Shown: one piece after another, positions 22,278 through 36,925 of the stretch | How positions within the stretch are numbered: the first letter of the stretch is position 1 | Layout: every line of letters begins with the position of its first letter | Virus record (IMG/VR): IMGVR_UViG_3300044643_000282 | Span: 1-37,998 of that record | Strand: one strand, 5' to 3' | Origin: a virus | DNA length: 37,998 nt | The notes under the pieces: model-generated | Told to the model about the DNA's origin: nothing | Databases searched by the model: none | What the model saw: the letters and a program-made list of their open reading frames with translations, nothing else | Translations under genes and position numbers: made by a program

Positions 22278-22672
22278 GAATATCAACTTGGGAAGACGCT
22301 TTATCCAATTACATTCTTACCAAACGCCATGAACCGTTTGAGTATGGCGTGAATGACTGCTGCCTGTTTGCCGCGGGGGCTGTTGAAGCCATCACTGGCG
22401 AAGACCCTATGACTGAATTTCGCGGTAAGTATGACAGCCTTAAAACCAGTATACAGGTTATTAAGGACATTGGCGCAGGGACCCTTGAAGAGACTATGGA
22501 TGGCAAGTTTTCAGAAGTGGAAATAGGTCATGCGCAGCGCGGAGACTTGGCTTTCTTTGATGGCAGCGTTGGTGTAGTAATGGGTGGCTTCGCTTATTTC
22601 GTTTCGGACGATGGGCTGGAGCGGATTAACCGATCCCTATGGGACAAGTGCTGGAGCGTAGGCCGTGGGTAA
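22274..22672 (+). CDS. NlpC/P60-like (DUF6950-type) tail-tip protein
   Basis: A 132-residue protein of the DUF6950 type: TWEDALSNYILTKRHEPFEYGVNDCCLFAAGAVEAITG is the key N-terminal stretch, with the Cys of NDCC in the place of the NlpC/P60 active-site nucleophile. A GHAQRGDLAFF segment follows, with a His close to the expected second catalytic residue. Similar proteins in tail tips are thought to cut peptidoglycan during entry. It sits just before the J-like gene, which is typical. Activity inferred. Confidence 0.75.
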   Translation: MRISTWEDALSNYILTKRHEPFEYGVNDCCLFAAGAVEAITGEDPMTEFRGKYDSLKTSIQVIKDIGAGTLEETMDGKFSEVEIGHAQRGDLAFFDGSVGVVMGGFAYFVSDDGLERINRSLWDKCWSVGRG

Positions 22673-25541
22673 GACTCTAAAGACTATTGCGATAGCTGCC
22701 GCCGCTGTTGCAATGGTCGTTTTCGCAAAGGAAATTGCGCTTTTTATTGGTATTAAAGCCATTACAGCAGCTACAGTTACCGCTGTTGGAGCCTCTTTAG
22801 CACTTTCTACAGCCTCAATGGCACTCCTTGGCCCCAAGATACCAAAGACCCAAATATCACGGCTCAATGTTAGTCTTGACCCTTCAACGCCACGCAAGGC
22901 TGTGTTCGGCACTACAGCTATGCCGCTTGATCTGCGCTATCACGAATCCAGCGGTACTGACCAAGAATATGTTGATTATATTATTGCTGTCGCGGCTCAT
23001 AAAGTTGCGTCTATTACTGAGATATGGTTTGAAGAAAAGCAAGCATGGACACTCGCTGGCGGTGTTACAGGCACTTATTCCGGCTATCTGACGGTTGCTG
23101 TTCGCACTGAGGGAACGGCTGGTAACTATATTTCCATTAACGGTGGCGGCAAGTGGGGTTCAACCCGTCGCCTTACTGGCTGCGCTTATTTGCATCTTCG
23201 TATTAAGCGAACTGGCCTCACCAAAAAAGCAGAAAGCCCATTAGTAAGTGGCTTGCCCAGTCGTGTCACAGTCATAGGTGATGGCGCTCTGCTTTATGAT
23301 CCGCGCAAAGACAGCACTGTGCTAGGTGGCTCTGGTTCACACCGCGCAAACAACCAAGCAACTTGGGGCGCATATACCAACGCGGATGACACCGACAACC
23401 CTGCCCTGCAATTGCTTTGGTGGTTGCTTGGCTGGGAAATAAACAACAAGTTGTCGGTTGGCTGTGGTGTTCCTTACACTCGCATCGACATGGAATCGTT
23501 TATCACTGCCGCAAATATCTGCGATGAAAACGTAACTTTGGCAATTGGCGGAACTCAAAAGCGTTACCGCACCAGCGGAACGGCATCAGATGCTGATGAC
23601 CGCATGGAAATCATTAACAACTTGCTTGCGTCAATGAACGGTACGCTTCGTGACAATGGCGGCAAGTTGACAGTAACGGCGATGAAGAACGACCTTGCCG
23701 ACTATGTGCTTACCTTTAATGAAGGCGACATGCTTGGTGGGTTTGATTGGCAGCAAACTCGTGGATTGACGGAAAGCCACAACATTGCCCGTGGCCGCTA
23801 TGTCGATCCTTCAGCCAATAGCCTTTATCAGATGGTGGACTACCCAGAGGTCGGTTTTGCATCACCTGATGGCATTGAGCGGGTTATGTCCCTTGATCTT
23901 CCATATGTCGAAGATGGTCGCCGTGCGCAGCGCATTGCCAAGCAAGTTTTGCAGCGCAATCAGTATCGCGGCATGTTTTCTACAACCTTTAACGCCAAAG
24001 CATTGGGCTGTCAGGTTGGGGATGTTGTGCGCGTTAGCCTTGAAGCCCTTGGCTGGTCAAACAAGCTATTCCGCGTTGTTAGCCAAGAGATTCGGTTTGA
24101 TGGTCAAGTGCCAATGGCCTTGGTCGAAGAGAATGCGGCTATCTACGCATGGGATGCCAATGATGTTGCACCAATAACACCCACTGCGCCGACGATCTAT
24201 AACCCACTGAACAGCCCATTTATCCTTGGAATTGATGTCGCTGGCACAACTGCTGAATGGTCTGGCGTAATTGATGACAATGGCGACAAGCCAGAAGACA
24301 ACGCCACAAGAAACGTAAATAGGGGCGAGTGGTCAGGCTCTTCGGTTGCATACATTGTCGGTGACTTTGTGCAGCGCGATGGCTCAAGCTATTCGGCTAT
24401 TGTTGCCCATACATCAACGTCGGTCAATGGCCCTCCAGGTGCTAACTGGTTGCTACTGGCTTCGCAGGGTGTTGCTGGTGACCCAGGCGCTGATGGGCCT
24501 CCTGGCGCTGATGGCACTCCGGCAATCAGTGGCTACCTTACCAAAGAAGCTGTCCAAGTATTTGCCTATGCCAATGGTGGCGTTGTTTCTTACGCGCCAG
24601 CATCCGGCAGCTTTAAGGTGTTTAGCGGCAATACGGATGTAAGCAGTTCGTTCAGCCTATCGACCATCAGCAACCCGCAGTCTTTGACTGTTGGCTATTC
24701 CAGCCAGACATATTCGGTCACGGCTGGGTTTGATGACGGGGAAGATACTGCGACACTTGGCATTCGTGCAACGGGAAGCGGTGCTTATGTTGGCATCACT
24801 ATCGACAAGCTGTTTTCGCTGTCGAAAGCAAAGGGCGGGTACGAAATTGTAGCTACATTGCCTACGACTGATTTGTTTGAAGGCAGAGTTGTATTCCTGA
24901 CAACCGATGATAAATTGTATCGCTATACTGGCGCAGCATGGACAACGGCAGTTCCTGCGGCTGATATTAGCGGAACCTTGGCTGACGCGCAGATCGCAGC
25001 CCTAGCAGCGTCTAAGATTACAGGTCAACTTACTGACGCCCAGATTGCGGCTATCGCAGCAGCGAAGGTTACGGGTCAGATTGCAGGAACCCAGATTACT
25101 GATGGCGCTATATCGACCGCAAAACTGGCGGCGAACTCTGTTACATCCAATGAGATTGCAGCTAACACAATTACTGCTGCCGACATCGCAGCCTTGACAA
25201 TCACAGCCTCTCAGATTGCTGCGGCGACTATAACTGGTGCAAAGATTGCGGCAAATACAATTGCAGCGGGTAACATTGTAGCCGATACCATCACAGCCAA
25301 CGAAATTGCAGCAAACGCAATCACTGCAACGGAAATTGCTACCAATGCTATTACGGCTGATAAGATTTCGGCTGGTGCGGTAACGGCAGCAAAAATGAGC
25401 GTTACATCGCTTGATGCCATCACAGCGACAATTGGGACACTGCGGACAGCGACCACTGGTGCAAGGCTTGAGATTGCAAGCAACCAGATCAGGGTCTATG
25501 ATTCCAGCAACGTGCTGCGCGTTCGTTTGGGGATTTGGTAA
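22665..25541 (+). CDS. J-like host specificity/tail tip protein with CBM and collagen-like segments
   Basis: A 958-residue protein starting at GTG 22665 (8-base overlap). Residues 4-56 are hydrophobic and Ala-rich. The middle (about 60-500) is the J-like hub core (SPLVSGLPSRVTVIGDGALL and IERVMSLDLPYVEDG are landmarks). Near 553-603 is a small carbohydrate-binding-like domain (WSGSSVAYIVGDFVQRDGSSY), then a short collagen-like run (GPPGADGTP). From about 765 to 911 there are many near-decapeptide repeats such as TITANEIAAN, then a small C-terminal domain. It probably binds the receptor or carries the fibres. Confidence 0.85.
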   Translation: MGKTLKTIAIAAAAVAMVVFAKEIALFIGIKAITAATVTAVGASLALSTASMALLGPKIPKTQISRLNVSLDPSTPRKAVFGTTAMPLDLRYHESSGTDQEYVDYIIAVAAHKVASITEIWFEEKQAWTLAGGVTGTYSGYLTVAVRTEGTAGNYISINGGGKWGSTRRLTGCAYLHLRIKRTGLTKKAESPLVSGLPSRVTVIGDGALLYDPRKDSTVLGGSGSHRANNQATWGAYTNADDTDNPALQLLWWLLGWEINNKLSVGCGVPYTRIDMESFITAANICDENVTLAIGGTQKRYRTSGTASDADDRMEIINNLLASMNGTLRDNGGKLTVTAMKNDLADYVLTFNEGDMLGGFDWQQTRGLTESHNIARGRYVDPSANSLYQMVDYPEVGFASPDGIERVMSLDLPYVEDGRRAQRIAKQVLQRNQYRGMFSTTFNAKALGCQVGDVVRVSLEALGWSNKLFRVVSQEIRFDGQVPMALVEENAAIYAWDANDVAPITPTAPTIYNPLNSPFILGIDVAGTTAEWSGVIDDNGDKPEDNATRNVNRGEWSGSSVAYIVGDFVQRDGSSYSAIVAHTSTSVNGPPGANWLLLASQGVAGDPGADGPPGADGTPAISGYLTKEAVQVFAYANGGVVSYAPASGSFKVFSGNTDVSSSFSLSTISNPQSLTVGYSSQTYSVTAGFDDGEDTATLGIRATGSGAYVGITIDKLFSLSKAKGGYEIVATLPTTDLFEGRVVFLTTDDKLYRYTGAAWTTAVPAADISGTLADAQIAALAASKITGQLTDAQIAAIAAAKVTGQIAGTQITDGAISTAKLAANSVTSNEIAANTITAADIAALTITASQIAAATITGAKIAANTIAAGNIVADTITANEIAANAITATEIATNAITADKISAGAVTAAKMSVTSLDAITATIGTLRTATTGARLEIASNQIRVYDSSNVLRVRLGIW

Positions 25542-30779: not shown

Positions 30780-31109
30780 ATGGCTATCACAAACACATGG
30801 TCCGTCGTTCAGATGGACGCCTACCCAGAGTACGAAGGCAACGCAGATGTTGTCTTCACAGTACACTGGACATTAAATGGCACTGACGGTGAACACACTG
30901 GCGGCGTATACGGCTCCGTTGGCCTTACGCTTGATCCAGAGGCAACTTATGTTCCTTATGCTGACCTTACTGAAGCCCAAGTCATTGGCTGGGTTAAAGA
31001 AGCACTTGGCGAAGAATCCGTAACAAGCTATGAAGAAAACGTGGCACAACAGATTGCTAATCAGATTAACCCACCTGTAGTGACGCCACCACTACCTTGG
31101 AGTGAATAA
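30780..31109 (+). CDS. Fibre-adjacent conserved phage protein, 109 residues
   Basis: Begins MAITNTWSVVQMDAYPEYEG one base after the fibre stop. Pattern: a strand VVFTVHWTLNGTDG, then YVPYADLTEAQVIGWVKEALGEE with a helical C-terminal half ending in a Pro-rich tail (PPVVTPPLPWSE). Small proteins with this look often follow fibre genes and may be fibre-assembly or trimming factors (DUF7936-like; name not certain). No catalytic or membrane motif. Confidence 0.7.
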   Translation: MAITNTWSVVQMDAYPEYEGNADVVFTVHWTLNGTDGEHTGGVYGSVGLTLDPEATYVPYADLTEAQVIGWVKEALGEESVTSYEENVAQQIANQINPPVVTPPLPWSE

Positions 31110-31110
31110 T

Positions 31111-31266
31111 ATGGATATTAACCTTACCCTGAACGTCGAAGAAGTTAACGCCGTCCTCCAGACGCTTGGCAATTTGCCAACTTCTTCCGGTGCGTTTCCT
31201 CTTCTGATGAAGATTAAGGATCAAGCTGAAGGCCAACTGCCCAAGCAAGAAGAAGTCGCTGAGTGA
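31111..31266 (+). CDS. Small protein, 51 residues
   Basis: A 51-codon gene starting MDINLTLNVEEVNAVLQTLG one base after the preceding stop codon. The N-terminal half looks like a hydrophobic beta-helix segment, followed by SSGAFPLLMKIKDQAEGQL. Similar short proteins occur in many phages next to fibre and lysis genes. Its stop (TGA 31264-31266) overlaps the next start (GTGA). Function unknown. Confidence 0.65.
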   Translation: MDINLTLNVEEVNAVLQTLGNLPTSSGAFPLLMKIKDQAEGQLPKQEEVAE

Positions 31267-31481
31267 TTGGTCAACTCGACCTTGTCAGCATCGTGACTGT
31301 GCTTGCCTTTATTGGTGGCCTTATCACTGTGTGGGTGAACCTCAACAGCCGTCTTGCGCTGCTTGAGGCTCGCCTCGACTTTGGTGGTGAGAAGTTCAAC
31401 GCTATCGACAAAAAGTTTGATGAAGTGATGATGCACCTTCGACGCATTGAAGATAAGCTGGATAACAAGGTAGATCGGTGA
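31263..31481 (+). CDS. Small membrane-anchored coiled-coil protein (XhlA/DUF-like)
   Basis: A 72-residue protein starting at GTG 31263 (GTGA overlap). One membrane segment (SIVTVLAFIGGLITVWVNL, about 8-27) is followed by a coiled coil with heptad Leu/Ile (LNSRLALLEARLDF and FDEVMMHLRRIEDKLDNK). This layout is that of small lysis-associated proteins such as XhlA-like or holin accessory proteins. It ends overlapping the exported N-rich protein. Likely part of the lysis block, role inferred. Confidence 0.65.
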   Translation: MIGQLDLVSIVTVLAFIGGLITVWVNLNSRLALLEARLDFGGEKFNAIDKKFDEVMMHLRRIEDKLDNKVDR

Positions 31482-32521
31482 TGAAGCAATTTGTGCTGGG
31501 TTTTATTGCGGTAACTGCATCATCGTCGATGGTGCTTGCACAGGCTGTGTCTGTCGCGCCGACTGAATACGTCTATACCACCACGACGACCAGCACTTCG
31601 GACAACAACAATACGTCCACCAGCACCAACACGAACAACAACAACAACAATTCCACCAGCACATCTACAAATACGAATAACAATAACAGCACATCTGCCA
31701 GCACATCGGTCAACACCAACACGAACACAAACTTCAACACAAACGATAGCACCAGCACATCGCTGAACACGAATAATAACGTGAACACCAGCACATCGCT
31801 GAACACGAATAATAATAACAATAACAATGTCAGCACATCGACGAACACCAACATCAATCAAAACACTGGGACGATGACCAACATCAACCAGAATACCAAC
31901 ATCAATTCTGGCACGATGACGAACATCAACCAGAACACTAACGCCAGCACATCTGAAAATACGAACCGCAATTTCAATACGGATGTGAGCAACAGCACTG
32001 TCAACCAGACGGTAAACAGCAACAACAACAGCACCGTCAACACGAACAACACGAACAACGACACCAGCACGATTAACCAAACGACAAACAGCAACAACAA
32101 CAACGTCAACCAGAACAACAACGTCAACGTCAGCGACAGCAAAAGCTACAGCGAAAGCGTTAATCGGCAGATCATCGACCAAAACATCAAGTCGCCGCCA
32201 CCAAGCGCCATCGCACCGTCGATGATGTCCTACAGCCAAGACCTTTGCACCACAGGGCAATCGGGCGCTGTGCAGACGCAGATCATTGGCCTGTCGGCTG
32301 GCCGTACTGTGCGCGACCAAAACTGCGAACGCATGAAGCTGTCCAAGACCCTGTATGACATGGGTATGCGAGTTGCCGCTGTCAGTCTGCTCTGCCAAGA
32401 TCGTCGCGTTTTTGCTGCAATGGAAATGGCTGGCACACCTTGCCCGTTCATGGGAGCAATTGGCGCGGACGCAACAACGGCTTGGGAAGAAAATGCCGAC
32501 CGCCGCCCTGACGCTGAATAA
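31481..32521 (+). CDS. Exported Asn/Thr/Ser-rich low-complexity protein
   Basis: A 346-residue protein starting at ATG 31481 (a GTG at 31478 is possible). A signal peptide MKQFVLGFIAVTASSSMVLAQA (cleavage after AQA near 22) precedes about 185 residues of Asn, Thr and Ser with runs such as NNNNNN and repeats of NINQNT, STSLNTNNN, TNTNTN. The C-terminal 120 residues form a globular domain with four cysteines (DLC, QNCE, LLCQD, TPCPF). The low-complexity part resembles secreted amyloid or surface-fibre sequences. Similar C-terminal domains occur in environmental phages. Function unknown. Confidence 0.75.
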   Translation: MKQFVLGFIAVTASSSMVLAQAVSVAPTEYVYTTTTTSTSDNNNTSTSTNTNNNNNNSTSTSTNTNNNNSTSASTSVNTNTNTNFNTNDSTSTSLNTNNNVNTSTSLNTNNNNNNNVSTSTNTNINQNTGTMTNINQNTNINSGTMTNINQNTNASTSENTNRNFNTDVSNSTVNQTVNSNNNSTVNTNNTNNDTSTINQTTNSNNNNVNQNNNVNVSDSKSYSESVNRQIIDQNIKSPPPSAIAPSMMSYSQDLCTTGQSGAVQTQIIGLSAGRTVRDQNCERMKLSKTLYDMGMRVAAVSLLCQDRRVFAAMEMAGTPCPFMGAIGADATTAWEENADRRPDAE

Positions 32522-34214
32522 GCGACTGATTTCCTTGCTGGCTGCATTGCTGGTAAGCACATCTGCGTCTGCCCAAACATACGATCCGACACTTTTGCCG
32601 CCACAGATAAATGGCGCTCCCACTACCATGACGCCATTGAACCTTGGCGATGATGCTACGCGCCGTGTGAGCCTTGGCTTTGAATTTGAATATTGGGGAC
32701 AGACCTTCACTGACGTTTGGGTGTCGAGCAATGGCTTTGTGTCGTTTGAAAGCGCGGCGAACCTGTGTTGCAATGGTCAACCTATCGACCAGGCCCAGCG
32801 CAATACGATCTACGCTTACTGGTCAGACCTTATCAGCTACACTGGCAACCCATATTATCGCTTAGACGAAGGGTCTGCGCTGTTCGGCTGGTATGGCACA
32901 CAGGAATACGGCACGAACAATCGCAACACGTTTGAAATTGGTTTGTTCAGCAACGGCAATATCCAATTCAACTACGGGTCAATGTCTGCATCTGGAAACC
33001 GCGACTTTACGGCTGGTCTTACTGGCCCTGAAGCTGGTGACAACATTCCGCTTTTCTACGGGCGGAATCCGCAATTCCTGCAAAACCAATCTGGCCTTTT
33101 GACCTATGCTTCACCAATTCCTGAAGAAATAGCAATCGACTGCAACGCAACACCGCTGCACCCATCTTGCCCACCAGCATCGATAGCTCTTGATGTCGGC
33201 GCACCTGATCCGACTGAAACTGCGCTGGAAGCTGCCGTGGCTTCGGTCGAACAGGCGGCGATGGAAGAAACGCAGCAAGAAGTGCAAATCGAAGATATTG
33301 CTGACATCGAACAGGTGCTTGAAACCGCGCAAGAGGCACTGGAAACAGCAGAAGCATCGGTTGAGGCTGACGAAACTACAGAAACTGAAGAACCTGTGGC
33401 AGACGAAGAAGCCGTTGAAGAAGATGCGATTGAAGAATTGGTTTCGGAACAGGGCTTAGAAGACATTAAGTCTGATGACGAACGCTTATCGCCAGACGAA
33501 TTGGCAGCACTGGCAGCGCAAGGCCCAGAAAATGATGACGCGGTTGACGAAATCTCAGAATCGGAAGCACTGGCATCATTGGAACTGGATGGTCCTGCGA
33601 ACGCTGTAGAAGGCCAAGACGCATCGTCTGGTGCATTGGAGCAGGAAGTATCAAATCAGGTTGCTACGGCGCTGGAAGAGAGCGGACAGGATATGCAATC
33701 CGCATTCTTTGAAGAAGCAGCGGAAGTAAGCCAAGCATCTTCGTTTGAAAGCGGTTCGCAATCGTCGCAAAGTTTCGGCAGTTTTCAAATGCGCGTTGAT
33801 TTTGGATCAAGCACTTCGGCTGTGGCTGGTGGTGGTGGGATCGGTGCTGGTGTTGGTTCATCGCCAGTGGAGGCTGCTATTTCGGCTGCTGGCCCCATGT
33901 CGATGTCCACCACGTTTGAAATCCTGAACAATGTTGGTGGCGGAACTAATGCAGCGCCTGTTGCGGTAGCCGCATCATCTGAAAAATCCGAAAACGAAAT
34001 GGCGGAGGGCCAATCGGAAACCATTAATGAAATGGGTTCTGTTCCTGCCTTCAATGCGTACCGACAGGTGTCGCTATCTGACAGGGCTGACTTTTACGCA
34101 ATTCGTGATATATATCGCAACAGAAGGCTGCGTGACGCTGACTTTGAGATGTACAGGATGACCCAAACTAACGACGCCAAGTGGCGGGAGATTGTCGATG
34201 CCCAATACAAATGA
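32493..34214 (+). CDS. Exported protein with NIDO-like domain and acidic helical region
   Basis: A 573-residue protein starting MPTAALTLNKRLISLLAALLVSTSASA (signal peptide, cleavage after Ala27) at ATG 32493, overlapping the N-rich gene by 29 bases. Residues about 50-165 look like a NIDO/PEP-CTERM-associated beta domain (FEYWGQTFTDVWVSSNGFVSF; NTIYAYWSDLI; NTFEIGLFSNGNIQFNYG). A strongly acidic Ala/Glu helix region (about 215-395) follows, then Gly/Ser linker and a conserved basic C-terminus (DFYAIRDIYRNRRLRDADFEMYRM). Function unknown; with the neighbour it may form a cell-surface or virion-tip complex. Confidence 0.75.
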   Translation: MPTAALTLNKRLISLLAALLVSTSASAQTYDPTLLPPQINGAPTTMTPLNLGDDATRRVSLGFEFEYWGQTFTDVWVSSNGFVSFESAANLCCNGQPIDQAQRNTIYAYWSDLISYTGNPYYRLDEGSALFGWYGTQEYGTNNRNTFEIGLFSNGNIQFNYGSMSASGNRDFTAGLTGPEAGDNIPLFYGRNPQFLQNQSGLLTYASPIPEEIAIDCNATPLHPSCPPASIALDVGAPDPTETALEAAVASVEQAAMEETQQEVQIEDIADIEQVLETAQEALETAEASVEADETTETEEPVADEEAVEEDAIEELVSEQGLEDIKSDDERLSPDELAALAAQGPENDDAVDEISESEALASLELDGPANAVEGQDASSGALEQEVSNQVATALEESGQDMQSAFFEEAAEVSQASSFESGSQSSQSFGSFQMRVDFGSSTSAVAGGGGIGAGVGSSPVEAAISAAGPMSMSTTFEILNNVGGGTNAAPVAVAASSEKSENEMAEGQSETINEMGSVPAFNAYRQVSLSDRADFYAIRDIYRNRRLRDADFEMYRMTQTNDAKWREIVDAQYK

Positions 34215-34728
34215 CGAAAAAGAAGAACCCAAGGTATCCTTTGATGAAAGCGGTTTCAGCTTCAACATTGGCGGCCTGAGCAGCGGCAAGATTGCTATCA
34301 TCTTTGCTGCACTCTCAACGATCCTTGGCGGTCTATGGGGCGGCTTTCAGGTGTATCAGCAGTTCCTGACCATGAAGGAAGTCACAGCCGCCTATGTTCC
34401 GCCTGACCTGTCTGGAATTGAGGGTCGCATTTCGGTTCTTGATGAGCGTGTCACCAGTGTTGAGCGGCTTACCAAGATTAACAGCGAAGCCTTAAATTAC
34501 ATGACGGGCAGCATCAGCAGCAGCGTCAGTGGAACGCGCCAGACGGTTGATGCTGTTTCAAGCAGCGTTAGGAGCAGCGATGCTCAAAACATGGCAATGC
34601 AACGTGCGGTGATCGATCAATTGCGGCAGCAAGATCAAGAGCAGCAACGGCGCATCAAAGAGTTGGAGGCGGAAACTAACGAACGTATCCAAAAGACGCT
34701 GGCAAATCCGCTGGCAGGAAAGGACTAA
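34198..34728 (+). CDS. Membrane-anchored coiled-coil protein (possible lysis accessory)
   Basis: A 176-residue protein starting MPNTNDEKEEPK at ATG 34198 after GGGAG. One membrane segment (KIAIIFAALSTILGGLWGGF, about 30-50) and a long helical C-terminal half (VTSVERLTKINSEAL; IDQLRQQDQEQQRRIKELEAE) predicted to be coiled coil. It could span the periplasm like a spanin or act as a scaffold for the exported proteins upstream. It overlaps the preceding gene's end by 17 bases. No enzymatic motif. Confidence 0.65.
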   Translation: MPNTNDEKEEPKVSFDESGFSFNIGGLSSGKIAIIFAALSTILGGLWGGFQVYQQFLTMKEVTAAYVPPDLSGIEGRISVLDERVTSVERLTKINSEALNYMTGSISSSVSGTRQTVDAVSSSVRSSDAQNMAMQRAVIDQLRQQDQEQQRRIKELEAETNERIQKTLANPLAGKD

Positions 34729-34731
34729 TAT

Positions 34732-35241
34732 ATGGATGATAAATTATTAGAGGCACGGATCAAAGCGTTGCTGCTGGCGGCAAAAACAATGGCATTCGTC
34801 ATTGTCGCCATCACTTGCGCCATGATTGTCGGCCTATTCATATCGAATGAAATTATCGACAATAAAGACGTATTCGGCTTGCTGTCATACGTCATGACTT
34901 CGGTTGTCGGCGCTGTGGCTGGCTCCTACGCCACTCTGATGGGCATGAAGGGCGAATTGGCCCCACCACCACCAGAAGACCGTGATGACCCAGAACCAGA
35001 GCCTGTGGCCCCCGTAGCGCCACAACCAGACCCTTTTCCGCTCACACCTGACATGGTTGCACCAGCGCCACGTTACGATGACCCATCTGCTACTGTGTTT
35101 ATTGATGAACCAGAAATCGATGATGACGATGACGACATGGAACCTTGGGAGAAATATCGTGGAGATTTGCGGTATGATGCCAACGGTGACGGTGTGGTCG
35201 ATGAACTTGATTTCCCTGATTGGCGGAGTGCTGGCAAATGA
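34732..35241 (+). CDS. Holin-like two-span protein with dockerin/EF-hand-like loop
   Basis: A 169-residue protein. Two membrane segments (MAFVIVAITCAMIVGLFI, about 20-40; LLSYVMTSVVGAVAGSYATLMG, about 50-72) are followed by a Pro/Asp-rich linker (EPEPVAPVAPQPDPFPL) and an acidic tail. Near the end, D149-x-N151-x-D153-G154-x-V156-D157-x-x-D160 matches a dockerin-type calcium loop. A two-span protein just before the endolysin is a good holin candidate, but the added loop is unusual. The endolysin start overlaps its stop (ATGA). Confidence 0.65.
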   Translation: MDDKLLEARIKALLLAAKTMAFVIVAITCAMIVGLFISNEIIDNKDVFGLLSYVMTSVVGAVAGSYATLMGMKGELAPPPPEDRDDPEPEPVAPVAPQPDPFPLTPDMVAPAPRYDDPSATVFIDEPEIDDDDDDMEPWEKYRGDLRYDANGDGVVDELDFPDWRSAGK

Positions 35242-35852
35242 GCTTAATTAATCTTCAGAGTAAATGTGGGTGTCATGCAGATGGTGCGTTCGGTCCAGGT
35301 ACATGTAAGAAGGCTGCGGCTTTTTATAAACTATCACCTAATCGGGCTGCGCATTTCTTTGCTCAAACGGCGCATGAATCGGGCAACTTCAAAGCGTTCA
35401 GCGAAAATCTGAATTACGGCGCTAAGGGGCTGCGTGGCATCTTTGGCAAATACTTCCCAACTGACGCAATGGCCCGTGCCTATGAGCGTCAGCCACAGAA
35501 AATTGCCAACCGTGTTTATGCTAACCGCATGGGCAATGGTGACGAAGCGTCAGGCGAGGGGTGGAAATACCGGGGCAGGGGTCCGCTCCAACTCACCGGG
35601 AAAAACAACTACCGCGCATTCGGCAAGTACATCGGGCGTGAACAAGAGATTTTGGACAATCCAGACCTTGTGGCTACTGAACTGGGCTTTGAAAGCGCCC
35701 TGTGGTTCTTTGACTCAAACAAACTGTGGAGCATCTGCGATCAAGGCATCAATGACGCTGCCATTCTTGCACTTACTAAGCGCATCAATGGCGGAACCCA
35801 CGGCCTTGATGACCGTAAACTGAAGACCAAGAAATACGCAACTTGGTTATAG
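35238..35852 (+). CDS. Endolysin, GH19 glycoside hydrolase
   Basis: A 204-residue GH19 lysozyme/chitinase-like endolysin that should cut the glycan of peptidoglycan. The catalytic acid is likely E47 in FFAQTAHESGNF; a second acidic residue lies near E103/E107 in MGNGDEASGEGWKYRGRGP, and PLQLTGKNNYRAFG is a family landmark. The N-terminal 30 residues (DGAFGPGTCKKAAAFY) resemble a short peptidoglycan-binding motif. I chose ATG 35238 over an in-frame start at 35220 (ATGA overlap). No signal peptide, so it needs a holin for release. Confidence 0.93.
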   Translation: MSLINLQSKCGCHADGAFGPGTCKKAAAFYKLSPNRAAHFFAQTAHESGNFKAFSENLNYGAKGLRGIFGKYFPTDAMARAYERQPQKIANRVYANRMGNGDEASGEGWKYRGRGPLQLTGKNNYRAFGKYIGREQEILDNPDLVATELGFESALWFFDSNKLWSICDQGINDAAILALTKRINGGTHGLDDRKLKTKKYATWL

Positions 35853-35862
35853 GAGACTGAAC

Positions 35863-36069
35863 ATGGATTTGAAAAGCAAGCTGAAGAAAGAGGCTGGCAG
35901 GGCTTTGAAAAAAGAAGCCGAAAAAGCCATCATCAAGAAAGCTACAGGCAAACTTCTGCCTATGGTCGATGAATCTGAAAAGAAGCTGGGCTGGAAAGCC
36001 ACTGTTGCCGCTGCATTGGCGTTTGTCGCTGCCGCTGCTGCTGGCCTGTCGCAAATCATAGGCGGCTAA
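35863..36069 (+). CDS. Small amphipathic/membrane protein after the endolysin
   Basis: A 68-residue protein 10 bases after the endolysin stop, with an AGGAGACTG ribosome site. The first half is highly basic and helical (KSKLKKEAGRALKKEAEKAIIKKATGKLL), the second carries a hydrophobic segment (ATVAAALAFVAAAAAGLSQII). It looks like a small single-span protein with amphipathic helix, perhaps a lysis factor such as a pinholin or antiholin. It is the last rightward gene before the converging terminator. Confidence 0.65.
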   Translation: MDLKSKLKKEAGRALKKEAEKAIIKKATGKLLPMVDESEKKLGWKATVAAALAFVAAAAAGLSQIIGG

Positions 36070-36691: not shown

Positions 36692-36925
36692 TCATTGAAG
36701 CAGTAAACGATCTGGGATGTGCAATATCCAGCCATGATTGATAGCTGTCTGCACAAAGCGATCCTTTTCTAACGTGTGCTGACCTGTTGTCAGTTGCGCC
36801 TTCAAAAGTGCCTTACTGGATTGTGCCACTGCGTCCTGATAGTTTCGTGCCAGCCATTCCTGGCGGCTGCTCATGGGTGGCGCTTTGCGTCGGTGATCTA
36901 AGTTAAGTCTTGATCCTACTGCCAT
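36692..36925 (-). CDS. Hypothetical protein, 77 residues
   Basis: A 77-residue basic protein with ATG at 36925, preceded by a purine-rich AGGTAGGA ribosome site. It starts inside the last 23 bases of the HNH gene. Sequence features: SRQEWLARNYQDAVAQSSKALL (helix) and HTLEKDRFVQTAINHGWILHIPDRLLL. No recognised domain. It ends before the second leftward promoter. Likely an accessory early protein. Confidence 0.6.
   Translation of the reverse strand: MAVGSRLNLDHRRKAPPMSSRQEWLARNYQDAVAQSSKALLKAQLTTGQHTLEKDRFVQTAINHGWILHIPDRLLLQ

Follow-up and report, generated by a model that had tools for sequence, protein, structure and literature searches.

A three-gene candidate envelope cassette in marine and freshwater phages

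Layout of the locus and properties of its proteins

The window, a 37,998-nucleotide stretch of viral DNA (IMG/VR record IMGVR_UViG_3300044643_000282), carries two overlapping genes, A and B, both encoding proteins with signal-peptide-like starts, followed by a third gene, C, with a predicted membrane helix. An earlier note had placed A and B between fibre and lysis genes and singled them out as a candidate new system, and both points are supported here. The features of the locus are as follows:

31263..31481, plus strand: up1, 72 aa, one N-terminal membrane helix then a coiled-coil-like part (by hydropathy); upstream edge of the freshwater block
31481..32521, plus strand: gene A, 346 aa, N/T/S-rich, with a signal-peptide-like start and a C-terminal four-cysteine domain
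31481..31540, plus strand: signal-peptide-like residues 1-20 of A, ending VLA/QA (hydropathy and motif)
31580..32134, plus strand: low-complexity stretch of A, 185 residues, 80% N+T+S
32216..32518, plus strand: conserved four-cysteine domain of A
32493..34214, plus strand: gene B, 573 aa, with a signal-peptide-like start
32493..32573, plus strand: signal-peptide-like residues 1-27 of B, ending ASA/QT (hydropathy and motif)
32574..33176, plus strand: conserved front domain of B, a swappable module (alignment A4), NIDO-like by eye only
33177..33752, plus strand: acidic linker of B, variable in length
34005..34211, plus strand: conserved C-terminal region of B, ending VDAQYK
34198..34728, plus strand: gene C, with a membrane helix at residues 27-43, a coiled-coil-like part and a C-terminal NPL motif
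34732..35241, plus strand: gene D, a holin candidate with 2 or 3 hydrophobic segments, a Pro/Asp-rich tail and an EF-hand-like stretch (by eye)
35220..35852, plus strand: gene E, GH19 endolysin (PF00182, E 7.6e-12; phrog_181 endolysin, E 4.2e-63)
35863..36069, plus strand: gene F, a small protein with a hydrophobic segment at the C-terminus; marks the block's ragged downstream end

The coordinates of A and B and the 29-base overlap of their reading frames are as previously proposed, with an in-frame GTG at 31478 as a possible alternative start for A. The signal peptides claimed for both proteins also stand, as hydrophobic starts called from hydropathy and a cleavage-like motif alone. Both genes are under purifying selection, with dN/dS values against six relatives of 0.09-0.16 for the low-complexity part of A and 0-0.06 for its cysteine domain, and values for the front part of B of 0.03-0.10 against four relatives, a fifth comparison being saturated at synonymous sites. 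Together with the conservation described below, these values rule out a chance open reading frame for A or B; a 417-aa antisense frame across A (31520-32773) is attributed to composition. Elsewhere in the window, a DUF7936 protein (30780-31109; PF25590, E 1e-32) lies between the S74 fibre and the cassette, and the listed start of a tail J-like protein (22665-25541) is strongly hydrophobic, which may point to a miscalled start or to a genuine membrane segment.

The low complexity described for A, some 185 residues rich in Asn, Thr and Ser, is borne out by residues 34-218, the best 185-residue stretch, at 80% N+T+S; 126 control windows from seven other proteins of the window average 18% and reach at most 28%. 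Across 73 relatives this region spans 127-410 residues with 59-71% N+T+S over its whole length, the cysteine domain retaining its form as the low-complexity length varies, and the signal-peptide-like starts are similar. The longest such region of the 73, that of locus L076, occurs beside a B that is enlarged too. The four-cysteine domain is likewise upheld, with all four cysteines invariant in 9/9 aligned sequences (alignment A1). A matches phrog_20531 (E 2.4e-15, residues 160-334, by HMM), a PHROGs family with no function assigned that shares the cysteine domain, as do proteins of pelagiphages and roseophages. The structure model of A has a mean pLDDT of 46.8, exceeding 60 only in the last ~65 residues, with the low-complexity part modelled without structure, so searches of PDB structures say little; six matches at E<=0.001 in a viral structure library are all uncharacterised or unnamed. 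PDB sequence searches with alignments A1, A4 and A3 returned nothing significant, and a match to T4 Spackle in 1/56 A proteins (E 0.0033) did not recur in ten A proteins re-examined and could not be placed. Just upstream of A, a second, partial match to the cysteine domain (E ~1e-6) is present in CRP-207 (52977-53111) and CRP-810 (46441-46575), perhaps a half-domain duplication.

B had been described as carrying a NIDO-like adhesion domain, acidic helices and a basic end. The acidic part holds, with residues 229-420 containing 30% D+E and 1% K+R, whereas the last 60 residues contain 11 K/R against 9 D/E, so the end is only mildly basic. The NIDO assignment finds no profile support, PF06119 having no match in the window's B at E<=1 and exceeding the cut-off in 0/11 records, and the structure model of B (mean pLDDT 34) is too poor to judge the fold of the front domain. 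Many marine B proteins have an N-terminal stretch weakly recalling CBM_4_9 (PF02018), a family matched weakly by 4/52 B proteins (best E 0.0089), the window's B being without a match. Among relatives, B has exchanged its front domain and retained its tail, as in the B proteins of L098 and L099, which share 44% identity over 459 aligned columns to their ends and have front parts that do not align. The tail of the window's B aligns with that of L098/L099 (hhalign probability 73%, HMMER E ~1e-4), weakly with that of HTVC115P with L102 (28%) and of L095/L096 (16%), and at 0.3% with the main marine B group, for which homology is not established; a tblastn search of INPHARED with the window's B gave no match at 1e-3.

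Conserved order, a third gene and mobility

A viral-contig scan yielded relatives of B at 77 IMG/VR loci, with A immediately before B in 73, and in the other four (L011, L014, L040 and L058) B stands at the start of the contig; at L037, B is in frame from residue 81 only. Lack of conservation of the pair had been named beforehand as its refutation, and the pair has come through that test. The cysteine domain of A is found more widely, in 11 INPHARED records comprising six pelagiphages (HTVC115P, HTVC202P, HTVC023P, HTVC033P, Mosig and Baldr), two roseophages (CRP-207 and CRP-810) and three uncultured phages. HTVC027P, from a transcriptome paper (PMC12753301), is not among these INPHARED matches. 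Matches to the A-domain profile also comprise 18 loci on genome contigs, almost all of them from metagenome-assembled genomes and one (L102) from a single-cell genome labelled alphaproteobacterial, and at least 595 stretches of viral contigs, the best 80 of which contribute to a distant set of 106 loci (L079-L184). Among the matches listed for this set, 73 of the 74 loci with room have a signal-peptide-like reading frame of at least 250 aa after A, directly in 55 and behind one to four small genes in 18, compared with 12/162 control gene ends; the frame counted at L085 is a fourth gene and no true partner, and L090 was masked. Where inspected, the named pelagiphages and roseophages also have A followed by B-like and C-like genes, their A homologs being annotated one by one, mostly as hypothetical, and the three-gene unit being unannotated.

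Whilst the proposed pair is thus conserved, two genes prove too small a unit, as gene C belongs to it as well. B is followed by 2.4 kb or more at 120 loci, where the first three downstream reading frames were scored for NPL within their last 14 residues, and such a C was present at 117 (62/62 freshwater loci and, among the matches listed, 55/58 others), the exceptions being L083, L095 and L100. C is the first frame after B except in L079, L096 and L131, and NPL ends occur in 4/441 other downstream frames, 3 of these being C genes in second or third place. NPL is invariant in 34/34 aligned C proteins, which have an N-terminal membrane helix in common, and the first gene after B has an N-terminal transmembrane segment at 62/62 freshwater loci and, among the matches listed, 51/58 others. 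Searches of these proteins against Pfam and PHROG gave no describing family beyond coiled-coil noise, which includes a few Rz-like spanin families (phrog_739 in 2/34 and phrog_8821 in 1/34). CRP207_gp73 (L082, 3292-3873) is annotated as a 'putative lysozyme', probably a misannotation, its N-terminal membrane helix, coiled coil and NPL end being those of a C protein. On these sequence comparisons, A, B and C, in that order, make up a candidate envelope cassette found in many marine and freshwater phages.

In the freshwater relatives the pair sits inside a still larger unit than first described, a conserved block of up1-A-B-C-D-endolysin with sharp edges. On its upstream side, homologs of up1 are found at 60/72 eligible loci (median 79% identity), of A at 71/75 and of B at 74/75, and downstream those of C at 70/70, D at 66/66, the endolysin at 64/64 and F at 43/63. 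Outside the block, the S74 fibre recurs at 33/57 eligible loci, the DUF7936 gene at 23/66 and a minus-strand gene at 36903 at 0/50.

The cassette is mobile between unrelated phages, with its order conserved. All 19 of the A-domain records compared for terminase and capsid match the A-domain profile, and two have a terminase and capsid like those of the window: a near relative (G002) and a genome in which they lie on another contig (G028). The window's terminase is closest to those of the CRP-8xx group of roseophages (57-62%), one of which, CRP-811, has a terminase 59% identical to it and neither the cysteine domain nor a reading frame with an NPL end; phages of that lineage can thus do without the cassette. 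The eight phage records were deposited with complete or near-complete status, and any viral contig may represent just part of a genome. A search of open-access literature turned up no account of the A-B-C gene set.

Relation to lysis genes and spanins

Endolysin genes were searched for from -6 to +4 kb with M15, GH24, GH19, glucosaminidase, amidase and muramidase queries, and were found at 62/62 freshwater loci and, among the matches listed, at 30/58 others (22 downstream and 8 upstream), the freshwater group thus showing a strong link to lysis and the other loci a partial one. Among the 28 of the 58 listed non-freshwater loci without a recognised endolysin in range, DUF7201 and primase genes lie downstream at 8 and a terminase gene at 3; the remainder may hide unrecognised endolysins.

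The topology of C resembles that of an i-spanin, with an N-terminal transmembrane peak at residues 27-43 and a coiled-coil-like remainder (heuristic, with presumed orientation). This arrangement, together with the gene overlap, the frequent position beside an endolysin and putatively exported partners with cysteines, recalls Rz/Rz1 of phage lambda. Unlike two-component spanins, however, the window and the freshwater blocks offer no lipoprotein partner, A and B are much larger, and the cassette occurs beyond lysis cassettes too. The window contains two lipobox frames, each implausible by place as an o-spanin, and 61 freshwater blocks contain no conserved lipoprotein spanin, with three lipobox frames each at a single locus. 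A lipobox-like motif occurs in the starts of 12/87 B proteins of the marine set (among the matches listed), and the Rz family PF03245 exceeds the cut-off in 0/22 records, with one sub-threshold match (E 4.4e-5, record of L111) ~8 kb from A. The cassette lacks a recognised o-spanin and is not classed as a spanin. At locus L184, a 67-aa lipoprotein-like frame separates A from B and might be an o-spanin of that lineage.

Possible roles of the cassette

We tentatively favour a role for A-B-C as a late envelope cassette that opens the outer membrane at release, spanin-like but with no lipoprotein. A and B would pass through Sec and be processed by signal peptidase, the cysteines of A forming periplasmic disulfides, and C, anchored in the inner membrane, would span the periplasm as a coiled coil and dock via its NPL end. 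The front domain of B may bind a host-variable component of the outer envelope and its tail A or C, with all three proteins acting as one complex that would breach or loosen the outer membrane after wall cleavage by the endolysin, the job of a spanin performed by different parts. We favour this role on the grounds that the cassette of freshwater phages is accompanied by holin-like and endolysin genes, and that C has an i-spanin-like topology with no lipoprotein spanin recognised; of the functions offered in the earlier note, assistance with release is the option that synteny favours. Against it stand the listed non-freshwater loci lacking a recognised endolysin, the size of A and B, far larger than o-spanins, with few lipobox-like B starts among the matches listed, the absence of the cassette from CRP-811, and the occurrence of the spanin matches of C amid coiled-coil noise. 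Spanins are defined in a survey that counts 91/677 phages without one (PMC6139136), and the question of how the outer membrane is opened by phages lacking a recognisable spanin is raised there explicitly. As a mobile, conserved set with fitting topology and often a fitting place, present in cultured pelagiphages, the cassette is a directly testable candidate.

A related reading, which we regard as possible but unlikely, is that A-B-C is a three-part trans-envelope machine unrelated to spanins, passed between unrelated aquatic phages and breaching or remodelling the outer envelope of SAR11 and other alphaproteobacteria. C would then be an inner-membrane coiled-coil tether with its NPL end, B an arm that is exported, binds a ligand and carries an interchangeable head, and A their disulfide-bonded partner with a disordered tail.

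The swapping of B's front domain on a retained tail also fits receptor masking or superinfection exclusion, in which this domain would cover a surface glycan or receptor on an infected cell or on its remains and keep progeny or rivals from adsorbing, A and C holding B in place. The receptor-masking protein Llp of phage T5 is a small lipoprotein, and an exported phage protein at work on the host surface would achieve the same result. Masking accords with the movement of the cassette between unrelated phages, its position not always being beside lysis genes, and with its absence from the related phage CRP-811, but the freshwater cassette is inherited as a single block with the endolysin and masking has no obvious need for an inner-membrane coiled-coil partner; we consider it, too, on the unlikely side. 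Were masking or a surface layer the true function, an exported modular surface system would be added to the phages of SAR11 and its relatives. These phages are among the most numerous in the sea.

A surface matrix, in which A polymerises via its N/T/S-rich region and B adds adhesion, is less probable again. The strongly biased composition of A is held by purifying selection, and curli gene modules, for which aggregation or superinfection defence has been proposed, provide a precedent in other pelagiphages (PMC9599517). As with that T8SS module, the cassette consists of genes for exported proteins in phages of aquatic alphaproteobacteria and moves between viral families, but the genes and their order differ from those given there. 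CsgG and CsgF matched 0/35 records each, some of which may be fragments, compared with 4 and 1 of the control genomes respectively, and curlin is absent among the 19 families that a Pfam search of 56 A proteins gave at E<=0.1, so a curli system was rejected for the cassette. Furthermore, the low-complexity part of A is predicted to be without structure, and a matrix leaves the exit of A from the periplasm unexplained.

The T/RI pair of phage T4 is the model for a periplasmic regulator acting on a holin-like protein, and C could by analogy be holin-like with a large periplasmic part, and A its regulator, setting the time of lysis. The topology of C, the conserved cysteines of A and the position of the cassette before D and the endolysin in freshwater phages agree with this, but a B with a swappable domain goes unexplained and some loci lie away from known lysis genes, making the proposal rather improbable. 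It is similarly doubtful that the proteins are virion or tail-tip components only resembling exported ones, as might be suggested by their genes lying just after a fibre gene with an S74 homolog near A in over half of the eligible freshwater loci, given the retention of signal-peptide-like starts in A and B across relatives, the membrane helix of C, and the lower conservation, around the cassette, of fibre genes than of C, D and the endolysin.

Gene D is, from its predicted segments, a candidate calcium-linked holin, and D-like proteins follow or precede C in CRP-207 (L082, 3870-4223) and L096 (10598-11038).
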